DNA of 38,028 nucleotides. Source: a virus. The notes under the pieces are model-generated. The model searched no databases and was not told the DNA's origin. It saw nothing but the letters and a program-made list of their open reading frames with translations. A program made the translations under genes and the position numbers. The stretch covers positions 1 through 38,028 of the IMG/VR virus record IMGVR_UViG_3300031825_000049. One strand, given 5' to 3'. Positions 1-38,028 of the stretch are shown here, in pieces (positions within the stretch are counted from its first letter, which is position 1; every line of letters begins with the position of its first letter).

Positions 1-111
1 CCAAGCCACCCTAGCCGCCCCAGCCGCCCCAGCCACCCTAGCCGCCCCAGCCACCCTAGCCGCCCCAGCCGCCCAAGCCACCCTAGCCGCCCTAGCCACC
101 CTAGCCGCCCC
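1..111. repeat. 9-bp Ala-codon tandem repeat, left contig end
   Basis: The plus strand reads as variants of AGCCGCCCC and AGCCACCCT repeated about twelve times. It encodes the Ala-rich segment of the junction-spanning gene. The same repeat closes the right end of the window, but the terminal sequences do not match exactly over any long overlap. Confidence 0.9.
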
Positions 112-291
112 TAAAAATTTTTCATCGGTTATATCAACGCACCATTCAATTCGAGGAATGGGCAAATCAAATAGCTTGTAAGACTTTTCAACAAGTTCCG
201 TAATTTTTTCCTTGTCAAAAACATATTCCTTACGAGAAGCGACAGCGTTCATCCTGTCTAACAATTCTTTTGTTTTTTGCGTGTATTGCAT
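1..291 (-). CDS. DUF6745-like protein, N-terminal part, interrupted by the contig end
   Basis: The reading frame starts at ATG 291-289, which overlaps the stop of the upstream gene as TAATG, so the two are probably translationally coupled. It encodes about 60 charged residues ending in IEWCVDITDEKFLG and then enters an Ala/Gly/Arg/Val/Trp repeat (AARVARAARVAW...) that runs to base 1. The rest of the gene is almost certainly the frame at the other end of the window (37307-38028), which begins in the same repeat. Direct joining of base 1 to base 38028 is out of frame by two bases, so repeat units are missing or collapsed at the break. The repeat is made of 9-base GCN-GCN-GGN/CGN units. Function unknown; I connect it to the DUF6745 family through the C-terminal part. 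Confidence 0.7.
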   Translation of the reverse strand, partial: MQYTQKTKELLDRMNAVASRKEYVFDKEKITELVEKSYKLFDLPIPRIEWCVDITDEKFLGAARVARAARVAWAAGAARVAGAARVAGAAGAARVAW

Positions 292-2716: not shown

Positions 2717-2828
2717 ATAAGTAATTGATTAAGTCTTTAGGGTCTAATTTCTTAAATCTTCTATGCTTTTCTTCTTCCATTCGCTCAAACATATAGTCCA
2801 TTAGCTTGTCATTTTGCGGATGTGACAT
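2670..2828 (-). CDS. small charged protein (52 aa)
   Basis: An open frame runs from ATG 2828 to TGA 2670 and encodes MSHPQNDKLMDYMFERMEEE..., a strongly charged helical peptide. It overlaps the end of the upstream zinc-binding-like gene and 47 bases of the downstream annealing-protein gene in other frames. The size fits the dense packing of this operon. Long overlaps lower the confidence; no function is assigned. Confidence 0.5.
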   Translation of the reverse strand: MSHPQNDKLMDYMFERMEEEKHRRFKKLDPKDLINYLYDQPKKNDHRWNGSR

Positions 2829-3021
2829 GACTTTCCTTTCTAAGCGTGGCTAGAAATTCGTTGGTAGGCCAGGAACCGTTGCACCATGTGCCGTTTGGTA
2901 GCCGTTGTCCGCACCAGTTGCCCCACTTGCCCTTTTTAATCGTATGAGAGGGGTGTTTAGCGCAAGGCTTGCCTACTTCGTATTCCGCCCATGCTTCTAA
3001 TTCTTTATTTGTTGCTTGCAT
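2809..3021 (-). CDS. small Cys/His protein (70 aa)
   Basis: The product has a middle segment with Cys19, His22, His26, Cys37 and Cys47 (GKPCAKHPSHTIKKGKWG, then NWCGQRLPNGTWCNG). This could form a zinc-binding fold, but the spacing is not one I can name. It sits in the replication operon and overlaps its upstream neighbour by 17 bases. Function unknown. Confidence 0.65.
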   Translation of the reverse strand: MQATNKELEAWAEYEVGKPCAKHPSHTIKKGKWGNWCGQRLPNGTWCNGSWPTNEFLATLRKESHVTSAK

Positions 3022-3409: not shown

Positions 3410-3724
3410 TTATTGTATTTGCTCAAACAAATACTTTATATTATCTAACCTACTTATTATTTCGTCAGACTCTATTTTTATCAATTCTTCACGTCTGGCT
3501 TGTATCAACTTGCCTAAATTCGAGTTAGGCTCAATCCAGTGTACATAAGATTTGTAAATTTGGTCGTCAGTACTATTGTCAGAGCCTATTAATTTTTTTC
3601 CATCAATTTTTAACTTTGCAGAAAAGGGGCTTTTGTAGAGTAAGTTAAAGAACTGGGTATATTCAGCCTGTAATTTTGCCCCTGCTCTTTCTTCAATTCT
3701 TTTCTCAATGAATGTTTTATCCAT
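3410..3724 (-). CDS. hypothetical protein (104 aa)
   Basis: The product MDKTFIEKRIEERAGAKLQAE... is charged and probably helical at both ends, with a C-terminal coiled-coil-like segment (LIQARREELIKIESDEIISR). No family is recognised. It is the first gene of the early operon downstream of the structured non-coding block, so transcripts from that side may reach it. Confidence 0.65.
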   Translation of the reverse strand: MDKTFIEKRIEERAGAKLQAEYTQFFNLLYKSPFSAKLKIDGKKLIGSDNSTDDQIYKSYVHWIEPNSNLGKLIQARREELIKIESDEIISRLDNIKYLFEQIQ

Positions 3725-3761
3725 AATTTATTTATTGGTTATTTAATCTCGACCTTTAATC

Positions 3762-3922
3762 CAGCCAGAGGCGTAAGGCGTAACAAGATGATTGCACCCC
3801 GCCTCTGACTGTAGTTTTCCAAGGCAGATTCCATACTGCCTTAAGTGATTGCTCACTTACCCCCAAGCCCGAAGGCTTAGGAGTGGGGGCACTTGACACC
3901 CTTCGCTCCAGTCAAGCTGGAG
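3762..3922. other. array of four hairpins, including an IS200/IS605-end-like hairpin
   Basis: Four strong hairpins follow one another: 3762-3773 with 3800-3811 (12 pairs, one wobble), 3821-3827 with 3836-3842 (7 pairs), 3860-3869 with 3874-3889 (CCCCC, AAGCC, CGAA loop, GGCTT, bulge, GGGGG) and 3906-3911 with 3917-3922 (6 pairs). The third, read on the minus strand as CCCCCACTCCTAAGCC-TTCG-GGCTT-GGGGG, closely resembles the right-end hairpin of IS200/IS605-family elements. No transposase or TnpB frame is present, so if it is such an end it is a remnant or a mobilised short element. Confidence 0.45.
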
Positions 3923-3930
3923 GGTAAATG

Positions 3931-3958
3931 AAAAAACCAGTAGCATTTCTGCTACTGG
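3931..3958 (-). terminator. intrinsic terminator of structured RNA 1
   Basis: On the minus strand CCAGTAGCA-GAAA-TGCTACTGG is followed by six Ts. Five bases of the stem (3954-3958) are also part of the 14-pair end helix of the RNA, so the terminator and the complete end helix cannot both form fully. Confidence 0.85.
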
Positions 3959-4297
3959 CTAGGTAAGGAAACGCTACTACCGAAGTAGTAACCCCTTATT
4001 TGCTCAAATTTTGACTACCACTGCGTCGCCTAAGCTGTATCTTATGAGGCGCGGGGCGGTTAAAAATAATAACGCTGAGGTCAATTTTGAGCGTTTGGTG
4101 AGATTTCCAGGTAGGGGCATAAAGACTAGCCACAATGGGCTAAGCGTTACTACGGTACTAACCTCTTGGCTTCGCCAACTTCGCACGTCTGCAAAATCGG
4201 TTACTCCCAAAAGGTCTTCTCATAGCTTACTTTATGCTTTTAACTGGAAACCTCTAATTTGGCTTACCTAGCCAGTATTCAAATTTTCAAGGAGCTT
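3931..4297 (-). ncRNA. large structured RNA 1 (about 370 nt)
   Basis: No coding frame is credible here, but the minus strand has a complete transcription unit. The promoter is TTGACA (4327-4332), a 17-base spacer, then TAAACT (4304-4309). The 3' end is an intrinsic terminator with a 9-pair stem and U-run at 3931-3958. Long-range helices close the molecule: 4263-4276 pairs with 3954-3967 over 14 perfect pairs, 4244-4254 with 4100-4110 over 11 pairs, and 4080-4093 with 4002-4015 over 12 pairs with a small internal loop. A TACTAC-TTCG-GTAGTA tetraloop hairpin lies at 3974-3990. I cannot assign it to a named class. By size and phage context it resembles the giant phage RNAs (GOLLD, ROOL), but this is not demonstrated. 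Confidence 0.75.
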
Positions 4298-4303
4298 ATA
4301 TAT

Positions 4304-4332
4304 AGTTTAGCAAGCGGTCTTTAAACTGTCAA
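4304..4332 (-). promoter_or_regulatory. sigma70-type promoter of structured RNA 1
   Basis: TTGACA, 17 bases, TAAACT. The -35 box is formed by the last codons (Leu-Thr-Val-stop side) of the small basic protein gene upstream. The spacer ends in ACCGCTTGC and runs into TAAAC, a block shared with the promoter of that same gene. Confidence 0.8.
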
Positions 4333-4488
4333 GGGCTGTTTATCCACAAGCGCTTTTCTGTTCTCTTTGCGCTTTTTGGCCGCTAAAAGTTGGATTTTAC
4401 GATAGTGTTCTATTCCGAACCGCTTGGCTGTTTTCTTACCACCCCTACTACCAAGTTCCTTAGCTACTGTTTTTAATAAGTCTTTCAT
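4321..4488 (-). CDS. small basic RGGK-type protein (55 aa), leaderless mRNA
   Basis: The frame from ATG 4488 to TAA 4321 gives MKDLLKTVAKELGSRGGKKT followed by AKRFGIEHYRKIQLLAAKKRKE. The RGGKKTAKRFG...YRKI pattern resembles small RGGKAxAKK-type proteins that occur widely in bacteria and phages and are often annotated as general stress or DNA-associated proteins. Here it is probably a basic nucleic-acid-binding protein. The -10 box of its promoter ends only 6 bases before the ATG, so the transcript would start at or next to the start codon (leaderless). Its last codons contain the -35 box of the downstream structured RNA, which suggests the two are controlled together. Confidence 0.7.
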   Translation of the reverse strand: MKDLLKTVAKELGSRGGKKTAKRFGIEHYRKIQLLAAKKRKENRKALVDKQPLTV

Positions 4489-4494
4489 ATTTAT

Positions 4495-4522
4495 ATTTTA
4501 GCAAGCGGTTTATATTTGTCAA
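4495..4522 (-). promoter_or_regulatory. promoter of the RGGK-type gene
   Basis: TTGACA (4517-4522), a 16-base spacer, TAAAAT (4495-4500). The segment ACCGCTTGCTAAA next to and in the -10 box is repeated in the promoter of structured RNA 1 and is a candidate operator. Confidence 0.75.
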
Positions 4523-4552
4523 CCTTTTAAAATTGGGGCAAAGGTGTTTATT

Positions 4553-4852
4553 TTAAATGTTATCCACAAAGCCTGGGGTGGTTTTTCGAGCTATCCACTC
4601 CCCTAGCCATTTTAGAAAACTTTCGTATAAGGAGAGTTTTGGTTTTATCAATCCCCTAAGTTTTTCTAAAGTTTTGTCTTCGTGGTGGAAGCAGGCTACT
4701 AACAGATCACGGTCTTGTAGGCACATCATTACTTGCTCGTTACACCCGCAAGGGCAGTAACCGAGAAAATAGCCTAAATGTCCGTTTTCCTCCCTTATCG
4801 GGAAGCCTGTTACTTTCCTACCTCCTTTAATTGACTGACGTGTTAAAATCAT
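4553..4852 (-). CDS. hypothetical protein with a CPCGC motif (99 aa)
   Basis: The product begins MILTRQSIKGGRKVTGFPIR and has GYCPCGCNEQVMMCLQDRD (residues 32-50) with later CFHHED, so Cys and His residues could bind zinc. A C-terminal helix (SLYESFLKWLGEWIARK) follows. The start has an AGGAG 9 bases upstream. It lies between the HNH/AP2 nuclease gene and the small basic protein gene on the same strand. No family is recognised. Confidence 0.65.
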   Translation of the reverse strand: MILTRQSIKGGRKVTGFPIREENGHLGYFLGYCPCGCNEQVMMCLQDRDLLVACFHHEDKTLEKLRGLIKPKLSLYESFLKWLGEWIARKTTPGFVDNI

Positions 4853-4909
4853 TTTAGTAATCTCCTATTATTAATTAGCCGACCTTTGCGCCCAATTTTT
4901 GCATATTAA

Positions 4910-5440
4910 CTATTTTTTGTCAACCGGAAAATTTAGTTTTGCCTTATCTTTATAAATTTCTTTTGCCCAAATATCATAGGCCATAGCCGCCCATCTCTCT
5001 GCGGGAAAAATACCAATATGTAATTTTTTGTCGCCTAATCTTATCCTGGCTTCCCATTTTTTAGAATACTTATGTCGTGCTACTCCCCTAAATTCTGATG
5101 TATAAATTCTATCAGGATTATCGCTGCGGTGTGGCTTAGGTGTTCCATTGCTCCCTTTTCGATTTAAGCAATTTTGAGAATGGGTGACCCACCTTAAATT
5201 ACTTTTTTGATTGTTTAAAGGATTTCTGTCTATATGGTCTATTTCTAAATTTGTTGGTTCTTTTAAATGAGCGAACATAACAAGACGGTGCATATATAAA
5301 TATTTACCATTTTTAAAAATAACCGGATATAAAGGATTGGCTTTTCGTCCTACCAATGTCCACCACTTTAAATCATTTAGCCAGTCGTAATCTTCGTCGT
5401 CCACTAACGCTTCTTTATCTTTTATCTTAATAGTTTTCAT
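4910..5440 (-). CDS. HNH homing endonuclease with AP2 DNA-binding domain
   Basis: The 176-residue product has an HNH fold at about residues 50-92 (MHRLVMFAHL, then LEIDHIDRNPLNNQKSNLRW and a following SQN) and an AP2-type DNA-binding domain at about 115-170 (SEFRGVARHKYSKKWEARIR, then a later AERWAAMAYD). This pairing is the standard HNH-AP2 homing endonuclease of phages: a selfish gene that nicks or cuts DNA lacking it. It stands between two structured non-coding blocks and has its own promoter and a hairpin leader directly upstream of the start. There is no sign that it is inside an intron of a coding gene. Confidence 0.9.
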   Translation of the reverse strand: MKTIKIKDKEALVDDEDYDWLNDLKWWTLVGRKANPLYPVIFKNGKYLYMHRLVMFAHLKEPTNLEIDHIDRNPLNNQKSNLRWVTHSQNCLNRKGSNGTPKPHRSDNPDRIYTSEFRGVARHKYSKKWEARIRLGDKKLHIGIFPAERWAAMAYDIWAKEIYKDKAKLNFPVDKK

Positions 5441-5444
5441 AAAT

Positions 5445-5524
5445 CAAAAGCCCGCTTTACCAGGCTTGTACCTCTGGCTCCACGGGTTAAGTGAATAATA
5501 TCATAGCTTGGTACAAGCAAGCAA
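5445..5524 (-). promoter_or_regulatory. promoter-leader-hairpin cassette A, upstream of the HNH/AP2 gene
   Basis: TTGCTT (5519-5524), an 18-base spacer and TATTAT (5495-5500, preceded by TGA as an extended -10) are followed by a leader with GGAGCCAGAGG. A hairpin AAGCC...GGCTT with a short T-run (5445-5467) then ends just upstream of the ATG at 5440. Any full-length mRNA must read through this weak terminator-like hairpin. Confidence 0.6.
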
Positions 5525-5550
5525 TATAAGTATAGCACTTTTCCCGTAAA

Positions 5551-5638
5551 TTAAAAACCTCCCGTAAGAGGTTTGGCGTTCAAGTCGCTCCTGGCTCAAT
5601 AGTTATTTAGTTATACAATAAATATATTTTGGGTGCAA
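5551..5638 (-). ncRNA. cassette B: promoter plus free-standing short RNA (about 55 nt)
   Basis: TTGCAC (5633-5638), 17 bases, TATAAC (5610-5615). The transcript starts near 5603, contains GAGCCAGGAGCGACTTGAAC and ends at an intrinsic terminator AACCTC-TTACGG-GAGGTT-TTTT (5553-5573). There is no reading frame. The layout matches leader cassettes A, C and D but has no gene behind it before the next promoter. Confidence 0.6.
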
Positions 5639-5733
5639 GCCTGTGGAAACGGTGCAGAAAGTGGACAAGTATTCCTGGATTTTTTATCAATTCCTGATAA
5701 AAAAGTTATGAAGTTTTGATAAAGTCCTAAAAG

Positions 5734-5753
5734 AAAAACCCCCTTTTGGGGGG
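5734..5753 (-). terminator. intrinsic terminator of structured RNA 2
   Basis: CCCCCC-AAAA-GGGGG followed by TTTTT on the minus strand. Confidence 0.85.
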
Positions 5754-6161
5754 AAAATTCTGATGGCAGGAGGGAGCCTCACAATTTTTTTAGGTAATAC
5801 CTTGTAAGGCAAAACGTGTACCCTCACGCTTAAATTGTCTTATAAGCGGCCTCTAGGAATCTCGCCTAGCCAAAGTGGGGTTGGGTGACCCCCACGCATT
5901 CCACCTACAGGGCTATGCCCTACTACCTTTCTAGCCGACGATCGATAGCTATAGTGGAAGCTAGTATTTAAAACCAACACATCTCTCGCTTGCTCTGTCT
6001 GCCGAATTGTACTTTAGCACCCTAGTCTGGCTAGGATGTCGGCAAAGACTAGTAATTCCTACCCACGGTTCCCGATTTAACGGTTAACTCCTTCGTATGC
6101 CTACAAAGGTTTATTTCAGACTCCTTCCCGTGGAGAGACTAAAGGCAGGTTGGATGTTGGC
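5734..6161 (-). ncRNA. large structured RNA 2 (about 430 nt)
   Basis: The promoter TTGCCC (6191-6196), 17 bases, TATAAT (6168-6173, with an extended TGA) drives the minus strand. A C5/G5 hairpin with T-run at 5734-5753 ends it. Between them are many self-complementary segments on the minus strand: CCTTTGTA-GGCA-TACGAAGG (8 pairs), CATCCTAG-CCAGA-CTAGGGTG (8 pairs, enclosed by TGCCGA and TCGGCA), AGGGC-ATA-GCCCT, GTGGGG-...-CCCCAC and CTAGG-...-CCTAG. No credible ORF covers it. It is a second ornate RNA next to a homing nuclease gene; the class is not identified. GOLLD or ROOL membership is a candidate by size and context only. Confidence 0.7.
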
Positions 6162-6167
6162 AGGGGT

Positions 6168-6196
6168 ATTATATCAAATAAAAGCGGGAGGGGCAA
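6168..6196 (-). promoter_or_regulatory. promoter of structured RNA 2
   Basis: TTGCCC, 17-base spacer, TATAAT with TGA directly upstream of the -10 box. This is among the best promoter matches in the window. Confidence 0.8.
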
Positions 6197-6379
6197 GTGT
6201 GCTTATTCCTACTGACGATAGGGAATCCCGATTCTCCACCCTATTTGCATAGCGTTCATGGGTTAGCTATGCACCACCTGTCTTTTTCAAAGACCCATTG
6301 ATTACAAGTCAACGGAGTGATTAGTTGCCGACAATTTATTTATCGTTCTGTTCGGCTCACATCAGCAGGAAAAAATACG
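6197..6379. other. non-coding stretch with hairpins and an anticodon-arm-like segment
   Basis: The minus strand holds GTCTTT-GAA-AAAGAC, GCATAGC-...-GCTATGC and GAATC-GG-GATTC hairpins. It also holds TTGACTTGTAATCAAT, which looks exactly like a tRNA-Thr(UGU) anticodon arm. No matching acceptor stem or T-arm is found, so I do not call a tRNA. It may be the 3' UTR of the zincin-like gene or a decayed tRNA. Confidence 0.4.
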
Positions 6380-6796
6380 CTATAATTTTTTGGCTTCCTC
6401 TAATATCCGTTTCATCATAAAAGTATGCGAATGTGTAAAGGTTTCGTGATAGGGTGACATTGTTGTCATGCAAAGTGGAAAGACCCAACGACTAAAATAA
6501 AACTGGCAAACGTGTATTAACTCATGGGCTACTTCCGCAGGGTCTTTAATGCTCTTGCTGTCAAAGAACACAAAACCTTTACAATGCTTATCTTTCATGT
6601 TATCAGTAGCTACTACCTGAGCATGCCATTTTCCATGAAAACTTGCGTGTACACCATCTTTTTTTAAGCTCCTGGCATAATGATACATGTCTACTCTATT
6701 CTTAGTATAACATACCAAAAAATAATCATCAGCACGTTTACCTTTAGTTTTCCACCAAGGATAGATTTTAAATTTTAATACGTCGTATGAGTTCAT
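6380..6796 (-). CDS. zinc metallopeptidase-like protein (HELIH motif)
   Basis: The 138-residue product carries AEVAHELIHVCQFY (residues 87-100) with H91, E92 and H95 forming the HExxH zinc site of zincins. A later HETFTHSHTF (116-125) could supply the third ligand. There is no signal peptide, so it would act in the host cytoplasm or the virion. Such SprT- or WLM-like small zincins occur in phages, but the substrate is unknown. It lies at the end of the lysis and small-membrane-protein gene run, after a GC hairpin (6806-6832), and before the structured RNA block. Confidence 0.65.
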   Translation of the reverse strand: MNSYDVLKFKIYPWWKTKGKRADDYFLVCYTKNRVDMYHYARSLKKDGVHASFHGKWHAQVVATDNMKDKHCKGFVFFDSKSIKDPAEVAHELIHVCQFYFSRWVFPLCMTTMSPYHETFTHSHTFMMKRILEEAKKL

Positions 6797-6803
6797 AAGG
6801 CAG

Positions 6804-6832
6804 GGGGGAGCGTCGGAAATAGGCGCTCCCCA
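6804..6832 (-). other. GC-rich intergenic hairpin
   Basis: On the minus strand GGGGAGCG pairs perfectly with CGCTCCCC around an 11-base loop, between the 39-residue membrane peptide gene and the zincin-like gene. It is not followed by a T-run. Confidence 0.5.
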
Positions 6833-6851
6833 GTTAGGACTAACGGGCGGG

Positions 6852-6971
6852 TCACGGGCGGAGCAAGGCGGTTATCTGGTAGGAGTGGACAGCGTGTTCG
6901 AGCGCCAGGCCGAACGCCACAACGATAGCGGCGCAGGCGATTAGAAACCAGCAAGTTTGTCTGTCGGTCAT
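6852..6971 (-). CDS. tiny membrane peptide (39 aa)
   Basis: ATG 6971 overlaps the stop of the upstream gene as ATGA and is preceded by GGAGG at ideal spacing. The peptide MTDRQTCWFLIACAAIVVAF and onward has one hydrophobic span. Its GC content is much higher than that of the surrounding genes. Function unknown; a holin-like or accessory membrane role is possible. Confidence 0.65.
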   Translation of the reverse strand: MTDRQTCWFLIACAAIVVAFGLALEHAVHSYQITALLRP

Positions 6972-7156
6972 TTTCCTCCACGAAGGTCGGGTCTGACCTT
7001 GCTTTCCAGCAGGGTTTCGCTGTAGACGAATACTTCCCTGTGGGGCTGGTCAGGGTTCATAGCGGGGACGTTGTTCACGAACATGAGCATGTAATCGAGT
7101 AGCTCACGCTCATAGTTCGGTTCGAATCGGTACTTACGTTTCGGTTGTGGAGCCAT
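6968..7156 (-). CDS. hypothetical protein (62 aa)
   Basis: I choose the internal ATG at 7156 (MAPQPKRKYRFEPNYEREL...) because GGAG lies at the right distance; the longer frame upstream reads through sequence used by the 33-residue gene. The basic N-terminus is followed by a helical segment (LLDYMLMFVNNVPAM). No family is recognised. It is coupled to the next peptide through ATGA. Confidence 0.6.
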   Translation of the reverse strand: MAPQPKRKYRFEPNYERELLDYMLMFVNNVPAMNPDQPHREVFVYSETLLESKVRPDLRGGK

Positions 7157-7241
7157 TAGAGTCTCCTGGAGCTTAGGGGCTGCTGTCAGCCCCTTCGCTT
7201 GACGTGGACTGCTTGCGCTAGTTGTTGCTAGTTCTGGTTGT

Positions 7242-7343
7242 TCATCGCTTTCTCCTTTCCTTGAAGTAGATAGCCCGCACTTTGGGCTTCTTTTTCCCAA
7301 CACGCCTGGGCTTGCCATGTCGATTCGGGTGTCTGAGTTTCAT
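7242..7343 (-). CDS. very basic peptide (33 aa)
   Basis: ATG 7343 overlaps the upstream stop (CTGATGA). The peptide MKLRHPNRHGKPRRVGKKKP... is about half Lys, Arg and His, suggesting nucleic acid or membrane-surface binding. Overlap-coupled position and composition are the only support. Confidence 0.5.
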   Translation of the reverse strand: MKLRHPNRHGKPRRVGKKKPKVRAIYFKERRKR

Positions 7344-7438
7344 CAGTGCCTTTTCAGCTCTGCGATTCCCACCGCAAACGCCGCCAAGATTAACAGCCCG
7401 ATTAAGACGTAATACTGTGTGTCCGTTAGATTGAGCAT
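7343..7438 (-). CDS. tiny membrane peptide (31 aa)
   Basis: GGAGG lies 3 bases before ATG 7438. The peptide MLNLTDTQYYVLIGLLILAA... is a single hydrophobic helix with a short basic tail (ELKRH). It resembles the small holin-like peptides of phage lysis regions; no direct evidence of that role. Confidence 0.6.
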   Translation of the reverse strand: MLNLTDTQYYVLIGLLILAAFAVGIAELKRH

Positions 7439-7459
7439 AATCCTCCGTTTAGCAAGCTT

Positions 7460-7565
7460 TTACGGCCGAAATGCTTCCGAGTGGTTGTTGTCAGAAAGTT
7501 CAGCCGTAATGTAGTCTGCTATCTAGCCTCCCACGTCCTTTGGGGAAAGGGGCGGGAACGCTAGA
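7460..7565 (-). other. two-hairpin structured leader
   Basis: 7522-7527 pairs with 7560-7565 (TCTAGC/GCTAGA) around an inner stem with CCTTT/AAAGG, and 7460-7466 pairs with 7503-7509 (TTACGGC/GCCGTAA). The pair fills the gap between the 56-residue membrane protein stop and the 31-residue gene. It may be an mRNA processing or translation-control element. Confidence 0.45.
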
Positions 7566-7736
7566 CTATTCAATGGGCTGAGAGGTCTTGAGACGCAAAG
7601 CGACAGAACCCACGCCGGTAACTATCAGCGACATAGCCATGTCTTTGTCTATGAACCCAAAAGCCAAACCTGTTAGACCGAATAGAGTTTGAAATATCCC
7701 GAACCAAATTGTTTTACTCGAAAAGAATGTTTTCAT
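7566..7736 (-). CDS. small two-span membrane protein, holin-like (56 aa)
   Basis: The product MKTFFSSKTIWFGIFQTLFG...AFGFIDKDMAMSLIVTGVGS has the start 'SKTIWFG' and two hydrophobic segments separated by a short loop, then SVALRLKTSQPIE. This is a familiar pattern in small membrane proteins beside phage endolysins. It starts 2 bases after the endolysin stop. A holin or holin-partner role is inferred from location and topology only. Confidence 0.65.
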   Translation of the reverse strand: MKTFFSSKTIWFGIFQTLFGLTGLAFGFIDKDMAMSLIVTGVGSVALRLKTSQPIE

Positions 7737-7737
7737 A

Positions 7738-8469
7738 TTATTTTGCTACTAAACTAGACACTTTAAATTTATTAAATTCCGTAGGCGGCAATTCGACAAT
7801 CGTCGCATTAGGAAACTCCCTTTGGAACGTGACAAAGTCGGAACCAAATCCTACCAGCACGTCCCCTACGCTAAAATAAAGGGTTGGTTTATCTGCTTGC
7901 TTGTATACTGTCATGTTAATCTCCTTTTTATAATTAAGAATTAGTAAAGGGTCTACTGTGCCAAAATAGTTATTGTCCTCGCCCTGGACTTCGCACTGTA
8001 GGTGGAGGTGTAGGCCGGGGTAGGGCGGTACACCTTTCATTTCTTCGGGGACGGGCTGGGTGCCTGTGTAAACCTGTCCTGTATTGCCGCAGCGCATTAT
8101 AGGCGTGTCCCGGCTGACTTCACCGTCCTTATCTAAAATGTTTAAGCCATGTAAATACTGGTGTACCATTAGAACTCTTTTAGAGTAGTCTTTAGGTACC
8201 GTCCCCATAGCTTTCAGGTAATTTATCAATCCCTCATCCAGCCAGGTGTCTATGGCTATGGCTTTAGAGTTTTTACCCTGGTAATCTTCGTAAAAGTATC
8301 TAAGTGTACCGTCTAAAATAGGGTAAACAGGTGCTGGCCATCCCCTACCCTGGTCATCTAAAGGGAGAATGTCTACTCCTAAATGCAGTCCCCCCTTGTA
8401 TCTGTCCCAGGGGGAGTTAAAGTATTGGGTTATTGTTGACAGCCCTTTTAAGGGGTAGGATGGTCTCAT
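7738..8469 (-). CDS. endolysin, M23 family metallopeptidase
   Basis: The 243-residue product has an M23 (LytM-type) domain: GLHLGVD gives the HxxxD pair (H29, D33), MVHQYLH supplies H103 and H107, and PGLHLHLQCE supplies the HxH zinc motif (H154, H156). These enzymes cut peptide cross-bridges of cell-wall peptidoglycan, here for host lysis. The C-terminal 60 residues (from about 180) form a separate small domain of unknown role, possibly wall binding. There is no signal peptide, so release would need a holin. ATGA overlap with the upstream coiled-coil membrane protein places it in a lysis cassette. Confidence 0.85.
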   Translation of the reverse strand: MRPSYPLKGLSTITQYFNSPWDRYKGGLHLGVDILPLDDQGRGWPAPVYPILDGTLRYFYEDYQGKNSKAIAIDTWLDEGLINYLKAMGTVPKDYSKRVLMVHQYLHGLNILDKDGEVSRDTPIMRCGNTGQVYTGTQPVPEEMKGVPPYPGLHLHLQCEVQGEDNNYFGTVDPLLILNYKKEINMTVYKQADKPTLYFSVGDVLVGFGSDFVTFQREFPNATIVELPPTEFNKFKVSSLVAK

Positions 8470-8753
8470 TTCATTGGTATTCTTTCATTTATAATTGTCG
8501 AAAGTTTGGCAGTTTCTATTGCTTGGGCGTTGATACTGGAAATTGCCCCGTCAAGTTTTACATCGAGCGAATGGATGTGGTTGTCCTTGAGGTTGGTAAA
8601 CTCTAAGCGCAACTGTTTTAACTGTTCAGCAAACACCGCGTCTTGTTTTTCTGTTTTTTCCTGTGGTCCCCGAAAAGACTTATAGACAGTGAACAACATA
8701 CCTAAAAGCAAAGTTGCGTTTACTATATTTTGGATTATCTCGGTGTTAGTCAT
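8466..8753 (-). CDS. membrane-anchored coiled-coil protein (95 aa)
   Basis: An N-terminal hydrophobic segment (IVNATLLLGMLFTVYKSF) is followed by a long heptad-like helix (EKQDAVFAEQLKQLRLEFTN...). It overlaps the endolysin start as ATGA. Similar one-span plus coiled-coil proteins beside endolysins act as holin or spanin-like partners, but this is inference from location. Confidence 0.65.
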   Translation of the reverse strand: MTNTEIIQNIVNATLLLGMLFTVYKSFRGPQEKTEKQDAVFAEQLKQLRLEFTNLKDNHIHSLDVKLDGAISSINAQAIETAKLSTIINERIPMK

Positions 8754-22406: not shown

Positions 22407-22423
22407 GTTTTGTCCTTTCTTTT

Positions 22424-22480
22424 AAGGGGCGGGAGCGGAAAGCCGAGCTGGTGGGCGGCGGCTCTCCAATCCCGCCCCTT
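22424..22480 (-). terminator. strong hairpin after the major capsid gene
   Basis: AAGGGGCGGGA pairs perfectly with TCCCGCCCCTT (11 pairs), with an inner GAGAGCCG/CGGCTTTC stem. Only a short A/T run follows. It is probably a partial terminator or RNA stabiliser that raises capsid protein yield relative to downstream genes. Confidence 0.6.
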
Positions 22481-22492
22481 AATTACTTGTGG

Positions 22493-23374
22493 TTAGGCCA
22501 AAGTAATGTCTACCGTTAATGCCTTAAACTGGTTCCAAAGTTTGAAGCCGAATAAGCCATTAGTGCTTACTTCCTTACCTGTCTTACCGGAAACATCAAA
22601 CGCGCGGGAAGTAACATCTTGCGGAACAGCGTAAGTAGCTGCCCCTTTAACACCGAACACGCGGTGGCCAGAGTTGGTAATCGAAGTGGTGTCAGTACCG
22701 ACGTATGTAGCGTTCTCAAAAGTACCGGAAGCTACAACATAAATATCTACACCAGCGTAATTACTCAAGAAGCCGTTATTCAGAGACCTATCGGAATACG
22801 AGAAACCAGAAGTGAGTTGAGCCTGCAAAATACCGACAATATCAGTATTTTCAACAATCAAGTAAGCTCCGCCCATCGGGGTAGAGTATCCTTCAATCTT
22901 AGAAAGCAGGTTAGCGAAGATTACCGGGATGTTGGAACCCACAGTAAAACCGCCCGTGGGAGTGGTGTAAGTACCAGTACCGTCCTCACAAAGCAAGTTC
23001 ACAATATACTTATCAATAGCAGTCTTAATCGCATAGGCTTGGTTGTCCATGCGGTCTGCCATGATATCTGCGTGCTGCATGACCCGTTCAAAGTCATACA
23101 CCTGTTCACCGACCTTAAACTCTGTACCAACGGTCAGAGTATCGTTAGTCGTGGTGTAAGCAGCGGGGGTGTAAGTACCCGTCAACGTGGAAATTTCCAC
23201 GGTCGGTTGCGAAGAATAAGGATTATAAATCAACTTATTATTCGACCTATCGACGTTACAAACAGCTTCTGCAACTAGGGCGTTTCTCAGGATTTGCTGT
23301 AAATTCGGCCCGAAAAACTTAGTATTCCAGCTAGTTGTACCGTCAGTGTTAGTGACTGGAAATGCTTCAGCCAT
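22493..23374 (-). CDS. major capsid protein
   Basis: The 293-residue product fits an HK97-fold coat protein. The N-terminal arm has TSWNTKFFGPNLQQILRNAL, then TLTVGTEFKVGEQVYDFERV, followed by a helix MQHADIMADRMDNQAYAIKT (a spine-like helix), and a C-terminal domain with VYDGVxxYVV-like strands (GVDIYVVASGTFENATYVGT). It lies in the usual place after portal and scaffold. Length and the QAYAIKTAIDKYI segment resemble coat proteins of environmental podoviruses. It has a good ribosome site (GGGAG) and a strong hairpin behind it. Confidence 0.8.
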   Translation of the reverse strand: MAEAFPVTNTDGTTSWNTKFFGPNLQQILRNALVAEAVCNVDRSNNKLIYNPYSSQPTVEISTLTGTYTPAAYTTTNDTLTVGTEFKVGEQVYDFERVMQHADIMADRMDNQAYAIKTAIDKYIVNLLCEDGTGTYTTPTGGFTVGSNIPVIFANLLSKIEGYSTPMGGAYLIVENTDIVGILQAQLTSGFSYSDRSLNNGFLSNYAGVDIYVVASGTFENATYVGTDTTSITNSGHRVFGVKGAATYAVPQDVTSRAFDVSGKTGKEVSTNGLFGFKLWNQFKALTVDITLA

Positions 23375-33244: not shown

Positions 33245-33958
33245 CTACTGAATAATTGCTTTATAAGTTACACCGTCCAATTTAACTTCCACTTCCTTGC
33301 CTTTTAATGAGGGTGTTTCCTCAATCGGAGTAATCTCGTAATCACCCAGAACGTACTGATTTTTCCAATACGTTGAGCCGGTCTTGTCTGTTATGTCGGT
33401 TATCTTTCCTGTATCATCGCCGCCGATAAACCAGCCTTTAGTAAAAGAAACTTTTGCGGACACCCATGCGTTACCGGACACCCGTGCGTTACCGGACACC
33501 CGTGCGTCACCGTACACCTGTGCGTCACCGGACACCCGTGCGTCACCGTACACCTGTGCGTTACCGTACACCTGTGCGTCACCGTACACCTGTGCGTTAC
33601 CGGACACCCGTGCGTCACCGTACACCCGTGCGTTACCGTACACCTGTGCGTTACCGTACACCTGTGCGTCACCGTACACCTGTGCGTTACCGTACACCTG
33701 TGCGTCACCGGACACCCGTGCGTCACCGTACACCTGTGCGTCACAGGACACCCGTGCGTCACCGTACACCTGTGCGTTACCGGACACCCGTGCGTCACAG
33801 GACACCCATGCGTTGCCGTCTTGGCTTAGGTTTTCTTCCTTTTCTACATAACCGCCTAACTCACCCTTAACCACTATCCCAAAACTAACCGTCGCCTCAA
33901 TCTGCCATAGAGTTATTCCACACCACTCTTTTTTGTTCTTTGTAAGCTTAAATTTCAT
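33245..33958 (-). CDS. hexapeptide-repeat beta-helix protein (237 aa)
   Basis: An N-terminal segment (CGITLWQIEATVSFGIVVKG) and a C-terminal segment (GWFIGGDDTGKITDITDKTG) flank about 20 copies of a six-residue unit, [N/D]A-[R/Q/W]-V-[Y/S]-G. This is the left-handed or pentapeptide-like beta-helix pattern ('GNARVYGDAQVSG') found in many phage and bacterial proteins. The coding DNA is an 18-bp minisatellite. The regular helix suggests a rod-like surface for binding, but no function is known. Confidence 0.75.
   Translation of the reverse strand: MKFKLTKNKKEWCGITLWQIEATVSFGIVVKGELGGYVEKEENLSQDGNAWVSCDARVSGNAQVYGDARVSCDAQVYGDARVSGDAQVYGNAQVYGDAQVYGNAQVYGNARVYGDARVSGNAQVYGDAQVYGNAQVYGDARVSGDAQVYGDARVSGNARVSGNAWVSAKVSFTKGWFIGGDDTGKITDITDKTGSTYWKNQYVLGDYEITPIEETPSLKGKEVEVKLDGVTYKAIIQ
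33462..33816. repeat. 18-bp tandem repeat coding for the beta-helix
   Basis: About 20 units of GTGCGTCACCGTACACCT or GTGCGTTACCGGACACCC, mixed in an irregular order. The two variant positions switch YG and SG and Q/R in the protein, and the mixture points to repeated duplication and conversion. Confidence 0.9.
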
Positions 33959-37306: not shown

Positions 37307-38028
37307 TTAACTTTCTAATTTCATGGACATATACTCTGAATAATCAAGCCCGCACAACAGAGCTTGCATAACATCAGCTTTCGGCTGGGCTTCTGCCGCG
37401 TCAGGTGGAACACCCTCAACAAAGACACGACCAGTGGGACAAGTCATCCGCAAAAACCATATTTGTGGAAATTCCAAATCTTTGTTTAACTGTTGGCCTT
37501 CAATTTTAAACAGTTCATTACCACGTTCTGACTTATCAACTAATTCAGCGTTTTCTTTAATGATTGCTTCGGGGTTGTATTTAAGAGCTACTGTCCGCTG
37601 GTCGGATATTTCAATCGCCATTATCTCTTTGAAAGTCATCTGCTTAGATAGGATTTTCTGCCAGACTTTCTTATCAAACAAGACCCCATCAAGATAAAAC
37701 ATCTCATAACCATTTTTCCAAGAGATTGCTGGAAGTTGGTCAGAATGATAACGGTTTTCCTCTAAAAGAATTATCGGATTGGGACAAATGTAAATTTTAC
37801 CATCTTGTTCTGACCAATAACCACAGCCAACTTCTTTAAGTTGTAAAAATAATTCTTGCGCTTCTAAAAACTTTTTATCATTCTCATTGTGTTCATTGGT
37901 TTGGCAAAACTCATAATCAAATATAAACTCTTGTCCGTCATAATCGGTAGCCGCCCAAGCCGCCCCAGCCGCCCCAGCCGCCCCAGCCGCCCCAGCCGCC
38001 CAAGCCACCCTAGCCGCCCCAGCCACCC
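37307..38028 (-). CDS. DUF6745-like protein, C-terminal part, interrupted by the contig end
   Basis: The frame opens inside the Ala-rich repeat (AGAARVAWAAGAAGAAGAAG...) and then runs 215 residues to its stop at 37307. It contains NRYHSDQLPAISWKNGYEMF then YLDGVLFDKKVWQKI and AVALKYNPEAIIKENAELVD-type segments. The 'LPAIxWxxGxxxYxxxGVxxxxxV' line fits DUF6745, a family found beside Ala-rich repeats in phages and bacteria. This is the continuation of the gene at 1-291. No biochemical function is known for the family. Confidence 0.7.
   Translation of the reverse strand, partial: VAGAARVAWAAGAAGAAGAAGAAWAATDYDGQEFIFDYEFCQTNEHNENDKKFLEAQELFLQLKEVGCGYWSEQDGKIYICPNPIILLEENRYHSDQLPAISWKNGYEMFYLDGVLFDKKVWQKILSKQMTFKEIMAIEISDQRTVALKYNPEAIIKENAELVDKSERGNELFKIEGQQLNKDLEFPQIWFLRMTCPTGRVFVEGVPPDAAEAQPKADVMQALLCGLDYSEYMSMKLES
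37950..38028. repeat. 9-bp Ala-codon tandem repeat, right contig end
   Basis: Repeats of GCCCCAGCC and close variants run to the last base. They are the same family as the repeat at 1-111. Confidence 0.9.

Follow-up and report, generated by a model that had tools for sequence, protein, structure and literature searches.

A folded RNA whose closing helix shares a hexamer with its terminator, a candidate strand-exchange leader ahead of the early genes of a phage probably infecting Patescibacteria

The minus strand of this DNA, from an uncultivated phage, encodes, between 4277 and 3953, a putative non-coding RNA of ~325 bases, described here from a single sequence, which lies within a leader of ~570 bases and folds as a three-branched structure closed by a 15-bp helix (P1). 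The outer pairs of P1 compete with an intrinsic terminator for the same bases, and in the reading that we rank first, although we would put it a little short of an even chance, the RNA is a strand-exchange leader that decides whether RNA polymerase stops or enters an early operon. The window referred to below is the whole stretch of DNA analysed, the 38,028 bases of a virus record, and all features of the RNA are given on its minus strand.

A three-branched fold closed by a long helix

P1 pairs 4277-4263 (5′ arm, UACUGGCUAGGUAAG) with 3967-3953 (3′ arm, CUUACCUAGCCAGUA), and all of its pairs are Watson–Crick. A preliminary description of this DNA had proposed an end helix of 14 bp; the helix itself is present, but its length is 15 bp. 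When these 325 bases were put through 300 dinucleotide shuffles, comparable helices reached 10 bp at most, compared with 15 bp in the actual sequence. Inside P1 we distinguish Domain A (4254-4100), with an 11-bp helix P2, an 8-bp helix P3 and two branches; Domain B (4092-4002), a stem of 7+5 bp with an internal branch; and Domain C (3996-3969), a hairpin with a cUUCGg loop. The at least three long-range helices claimed previously could be located, namely 4254-4244/4110-4100 (11 bp), 4237-4230/4124-4117 (8 bp) and 4092-4086/4008-4002 (7 bp), together with others. A local 5′ hairpin, P0 (4274-4260), with the sequence UGGCU(AGGUA)AGCCA, is predicted to form first and then to be replaced by P1.

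The core (4277-3953) has a folding energy of −124.3 kcal/mol on the minus strand; its z-score, from 200 shuffles per strand, is −7.6 there and −4.4 on the plus strand, indicating that the signal comes mainly from an RNA of the transcribed strand and not just from palindromes in the DNA; the longer segment 4297-3925 gave a z-score of −6.6. No credible ORF was found in the RNA, as had been stated before: the longest, which begin with TTG, are of 68 aa (minus strand) and 86 aa (plus strand) and are without a Pfam or PHROG match. Perfect 15-bp inverted ends, and the abundance of hairpins close to an O-like replication gene, would also suit a DNA feature, i.e. a mobile element or a hairpin-rich replication origin, of which transcription would be incidental. 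However, one strand folds much better than the other and, with regard to MITE-like properties, we found a single copy in the window and no flanking target duplication at 3953/4277; nor did pieces 4300-3950 and 3930-3745 have a copy in the host-lineage genomes searched. We therefore consider a DNA feature very improbable.

Exchange over a hexamer shared with the terminator

The intrinsic terminator that had been claimed (3960-3931) was confirmed, with a stem at 3960-3935 containing nine perfect pairs plus an A-U and a G-U pair, a GAAA loop and six U residues at 3936-3931. The last six bases of the P1 3′ arm, CCAGUA (3958-3953), are common to that arm and to the base of the terminator stem, and represent the predicted switching sequence. 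The overlap noted in the preliminary description is thus real, but it comprises six bases with the 15-bp helix, the five given earlier corresponding to the 14-bp version. CCAGUA can take part in two helices because UACUGG stands both at the 5′ end of the RNA (4277-4272, the outer six bases of the P1 5′ arm) and in the terminator 3′ arm (3942-3937), and since these two possible partners are identical the exchange should be balanced.

The unconstrained minimum of a transcript ending at 3953 contains the 15-bp helix. According to stepwise ensembles, P0 holds until the 3′ end reaches 3960, and P1 attains probabilities of 0.96-1.0 at ends 3953-3947; at ends 3935-3931 the outer pairs of P1 have values of 0.48-0.58 and the terminator 0.42-0.51, a balance near 1:1 at the decision point, at 37 and 20 °C alike. 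For the transcript from the RNA's own promoter, constrained ensembles placed the closed and terminator states within 0.3 kcal/mol of each other with the Turner 2004 parameters, and three other parameter sets favoured P1 by 0.9-2.4 kcal/mol, these being equilibrium values with errors of several kcal/mol and with little bearing on kinetics at the U-tract. The calculations support the earlier suggestion that the RNA either folds as a whole or terminates, in that the two states are mutually exclusive. This balance is confined to the outer six pairs of P1; the inner nine are compatible with a full terminator, so that stabilization of the core need not block termination. As a control, we examined 109 distinct perfect terminators in related DNA for an upstream helix covering at least five bases of the terminator 5′ arm: a competing helix longer than 8 nt occurred at one of the 109, the terminator described here (15 nt; next best 8 nt). 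Such an arrangement is thus not typical of terminators, although any closed RNA that ends directly at its terminator would have been picked out by this comparison too.

A balanced overlap might equally act as a fixed splitter, passing a constant share of polymerases and yielding a short RNA and a leader mRNA, with no signal being sensed. The near 1:1 ratio at both temperatures is what such a device would show, but the energies carry uncertainties of a few kcal/mol and the large, elaborate core would be left unexplained; we rank this reading third and regard it as improbable.

Two promoters with different predicted outcomes

The promoter named in the preliminary description, TTGACA-17-TAAACT, is present at 4332-4304, where it also carries a TGC extension before the −10 element and overlaps the end of a small KGG-type ORF; the RNA would start near 4297. 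This promoter and the others considered here were called as consensus matches only, by which weak promoters could be missed. A near-copy of it, the twin promoter TTGACA-16-TAAAAT, lies at 4522-4495, the RNA promoter sitting 190 bp downstream; the 13-mer ACCGCTTGCTAAA is common to both and has no other exact copy in the window. Directly behind the twin promoter is the KGG-type ORF (4488-4321, 55 aa), which from the sequence is apparently leaderless, and a transcript from the twin promoter would meet no terminator-like site ahead of the terminator at 3960-3935.

Starting the transcript at the twin promoter gave the closed, anti-terminated state with P1 an advantage of 7.9 kcal/mol under Turner 2004; under the other parameter sets this advantage was 4.6-7.3 kcal/mol. 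The shift toward P1 between the short and the long transcript, 7.6 kcal/mol, was matched by none of 60 shuffled upstream stretches (−0.4 ± 2.2 kcal/mol, none below −4.4), and the bias was already there at end 3937, with the U-tract still unmade. The main new pairing in the long transcript is between AAAAACAGUAGC (4474-4463), a piece of the KGG mRNA that mimics the terminator 5′ arm, and the terminator 3′ arm (GCUACU) plus U-tract; the long transcript thus favours P1 because this piece can also hold the terminator 3′ arm. Ribosomes translating the KGG-type ORF could hide 4474-4463 and so prevent the pairing.

The fold continues to the start of an early gene run

The stretch from the terminator to the next gene (3930-3725) is rich in hairpins and strongly folded, with z-scores of −4.6 for 3924-3731 and −5.0 for 3935-3725, and the whole leader, 4300-3725, which extends as far as the ATG that opens the next gene at 3724, gave −8.6. 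The structured RNA previously taken to end near 3931 is therefore real, but its fold does not end there and continues to the next gene. We found no further terminator in 3930-3725, and between the terminator and the next gene a consensus scan gave no −35/−10 pair above 8/12, as against 10/12 for the RNA promoter. The gene behind the leader (3724-3410, 104 aa, no known family) begins a close-set run, 3724-291, in which 1043-1786 encodes an O-like replication initiation protein. As there is no good promoter between, the RNA promoter is the nearest good one for this run, in which case polymerase could reach the run only by reading past the terminator at 3960-3935. The consensus scans thus weakly suggest that the run may be transcribed through the terminator from the RNA promoter.

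That the fold reaches the next start codon, with no good promoter in between, favours a leader or attenuator over a free-standing large RNA. In the strand-exchange leader that we prefer, P0 would form first and be displaced by P1 once the P1 3′ arm is made; in the own-promoter transcript the terminator arm would then compete with P1 at near-equal energy, whereas a transcript from the twin promoter would be strongly biased to P1. If the closed RNA were stabilized by its tertiary fold, a ligand, a protein or the upstream start, the terminator would be blocked and polymerase would continue across 3930-3725 to the gene run; failing this, transcription would end with the release of a short, ~365-nt RNA.

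The same ~365 nt could instead be the product itself, a structured non-coding RNA that stands alone and works in trans or as an RNA particle, with the overlap as a matter of compact design. A consensus promoter and a terminator of its own, the closed three-branched fold and the lack of an ORF all agree with this, which we rank second and hold to be possible while leaning against it: the fold continues beyond the terminator to the next gene, and the sharing of six bases by way of an identical hexamer would be unexpected, its chance under free design being about 1 in 4096. Even as a free RNA, it would still be an unclassified, strongly folded phage RNA.

Comparison with known RNA systems

GOLLD and ROOL RNAs are often found near tRNA islands. 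Phage RNAs of these two kinds exist and can accumulate (PMC12286853, PMC5643018), providing a precedent for a free-standing RNA, and like the present RNA they are phage-encoded, non-coding and of an elaborate, multi-branched fold. The preliminary description had suggested a large RNA of the GOLLD, ROOL or HEARO kind, but no part of the window matched an Rfam model at gathering score, whether of these, OLE or other families, and a permissive scan of 3500-7400 returned only unrelated matches at chance level. The present RNA differs from GOLLD and ROOL in that it matches neither in sequence or structure, is much shorter, has no tRNA neighbours (there is none in the 38-kb window), is known from a single copy and runs on into the leader of a gene, and its size, the lack of an Rfam match and the lack of tRNAs also count against the free-standing reading.

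A likeness in geometry is seen with strand-exchange riboswitches, in which the closing helix overlaps the terminator 5′ arm and, in the ON type, the stabilized domain prevents the terminator (PMC10907184); crcB and pfl RNAs have an overlap of closing helix and terminator 5′ arm of the same geometry (PMC2864571). As in the ON-type riboswitches ZTP, crcB/fluoride and pfl, the domain helix and terminator 5′ arm of the phage RNA share bases, here six, and the folded domain and the terminator are modelled as mutually exclusive. Unlike these, its domain of ~325 nt is far larger, there is no known aptamer or ligand, and the overlap is limited to the outer six pairs. Geometrically, then, the RNA corresponds to ON-type strand-exchange riboswitches; the tests made place it in no known family.

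We also considered an anti-termination RNA that acts in cis, as HK022 put does, and would remodel the polymerase instead of competing with one hairpin. The put RNAs are situated downstream of early promoters and consist of two stem-loops in ~70 nt (PMC9378689), and the phage RNA resembles them in being structured, in opening an early phage transcript and in that it would favour read-through. However, put acts on polymerase at distant terminators, and the phage RNA is five times larger and differently folded, making this the least probable of the readings considered.

If the preferred reading is correct, the early genes of a Patescibacteria phage would be controlled by an unusually large RNA of riboswitch-like or attenuator type, and the balanced hexamer exchange and twin promoters make read-through simple to test in vitro. 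To our knowledge, Patescibacteria are poorly studied and almost nothing is known of their gene regulation. A further proposal, which we make with reserve as somewhat unlikely, is that it represents a new class of leader RNA in a Patescibacteria virus, with a ~325-nt domain whose closing helix is the antiterminator by way of an identical hexamer, with twin promoters of different outcome (the upstream one reading through, the downstream one balanced) and with a core that would sense a signal.

Likely host and search for relatives

Nearly all phage genes in the record are on the minus strand, with a terminase (Terminase_3 match) and many small early genes. The protein encoded at 1868-2716 matches phrog_10048, of unknown function, and its best relative (69% identical) is on a Patescibacteria metagenome contig (L203), where it adjoins a relative of the 2809-3021 protein; further relatives, at 43-48%, are on Moraniibacteriota and Vogelbacteria contigs. 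These relatives point to Patescibacteria as the probable host. RecT, initially considered as a name for this protein, was dropped, as the searches gave only phrog_10048.

No homologue of the RNA was found by blastn against phages and plasmids or against 21 related virus records, where the best short matches were apparently within protein-coding sequence, or by exact patterns in IMG/VR, where matches fell in coding sequence or were due to chance. Covariance models of three segments (R1-R3) found none in the fetched loci and 380 Patescibacteria genomes, such single-sequence models detecting relatives only when these are fairly close. One Patescibacteria genome contained an exact match of 20 nt, which looks antisense to the 3′ end of rpsI and was taken as chance. 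Relatives of the terminase, the capsid protein and the phrog_10048 protein were retrieved and the RNA was found with none of them, and the ORF at 3410-3724 and three small neighbours had no relatives in IMG/VR. On L203, which carries phage-like genes, a folded, ORF-poor leader (8362-8729, z-score −4.5) lies ahead of the matching early genes, and its terminator is likewise looped by GAAA; it is unrelated to the phage leader in sequence and pairing, and at most weakly supports the occurrence of structured leaders at this place.

Repeats and other folded sites in the window

The same 9-nt repeat (AGCCGCCCC-like) is present at both ends of the window (1-119 and 37949-38028), which may mean that the record represents a circular or permuted genome opened within a repeat. 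Short direct repeats at 1405-1558, within the O-like replication gene, encode a peptide repeat of the PKKET/TQKGN type, and about twenty 18-nt repeats at 33385-33906 encode repeated hexapeptides (GDAQVY/GNARVS) in the ORF at 33245-33958, the product of which is probably a β-helix protein.

A second structured, ORF-poor region lies at 6168-5732 on the minus strand, with a promoter-like sequence at 6196-6168, a terminator at 5755-5739 and a z-score of −2.9; a terminator overlap of the P1 kind was looked for there and not found. Also on the minus strand, 7319-7575 is non-coding and folded and precedes a small ORF, with z-scores of −4.3 (7319-7565) and −3.6 (150-nt window at 7426). Finally, a strong hairpin at 22422-22482, with 24-nt arms that are 88% complementary and a z-score of about −5.9, stands just behind the capsid gene (22493-23374) and may be a terminator or an mRNA stabilizer.
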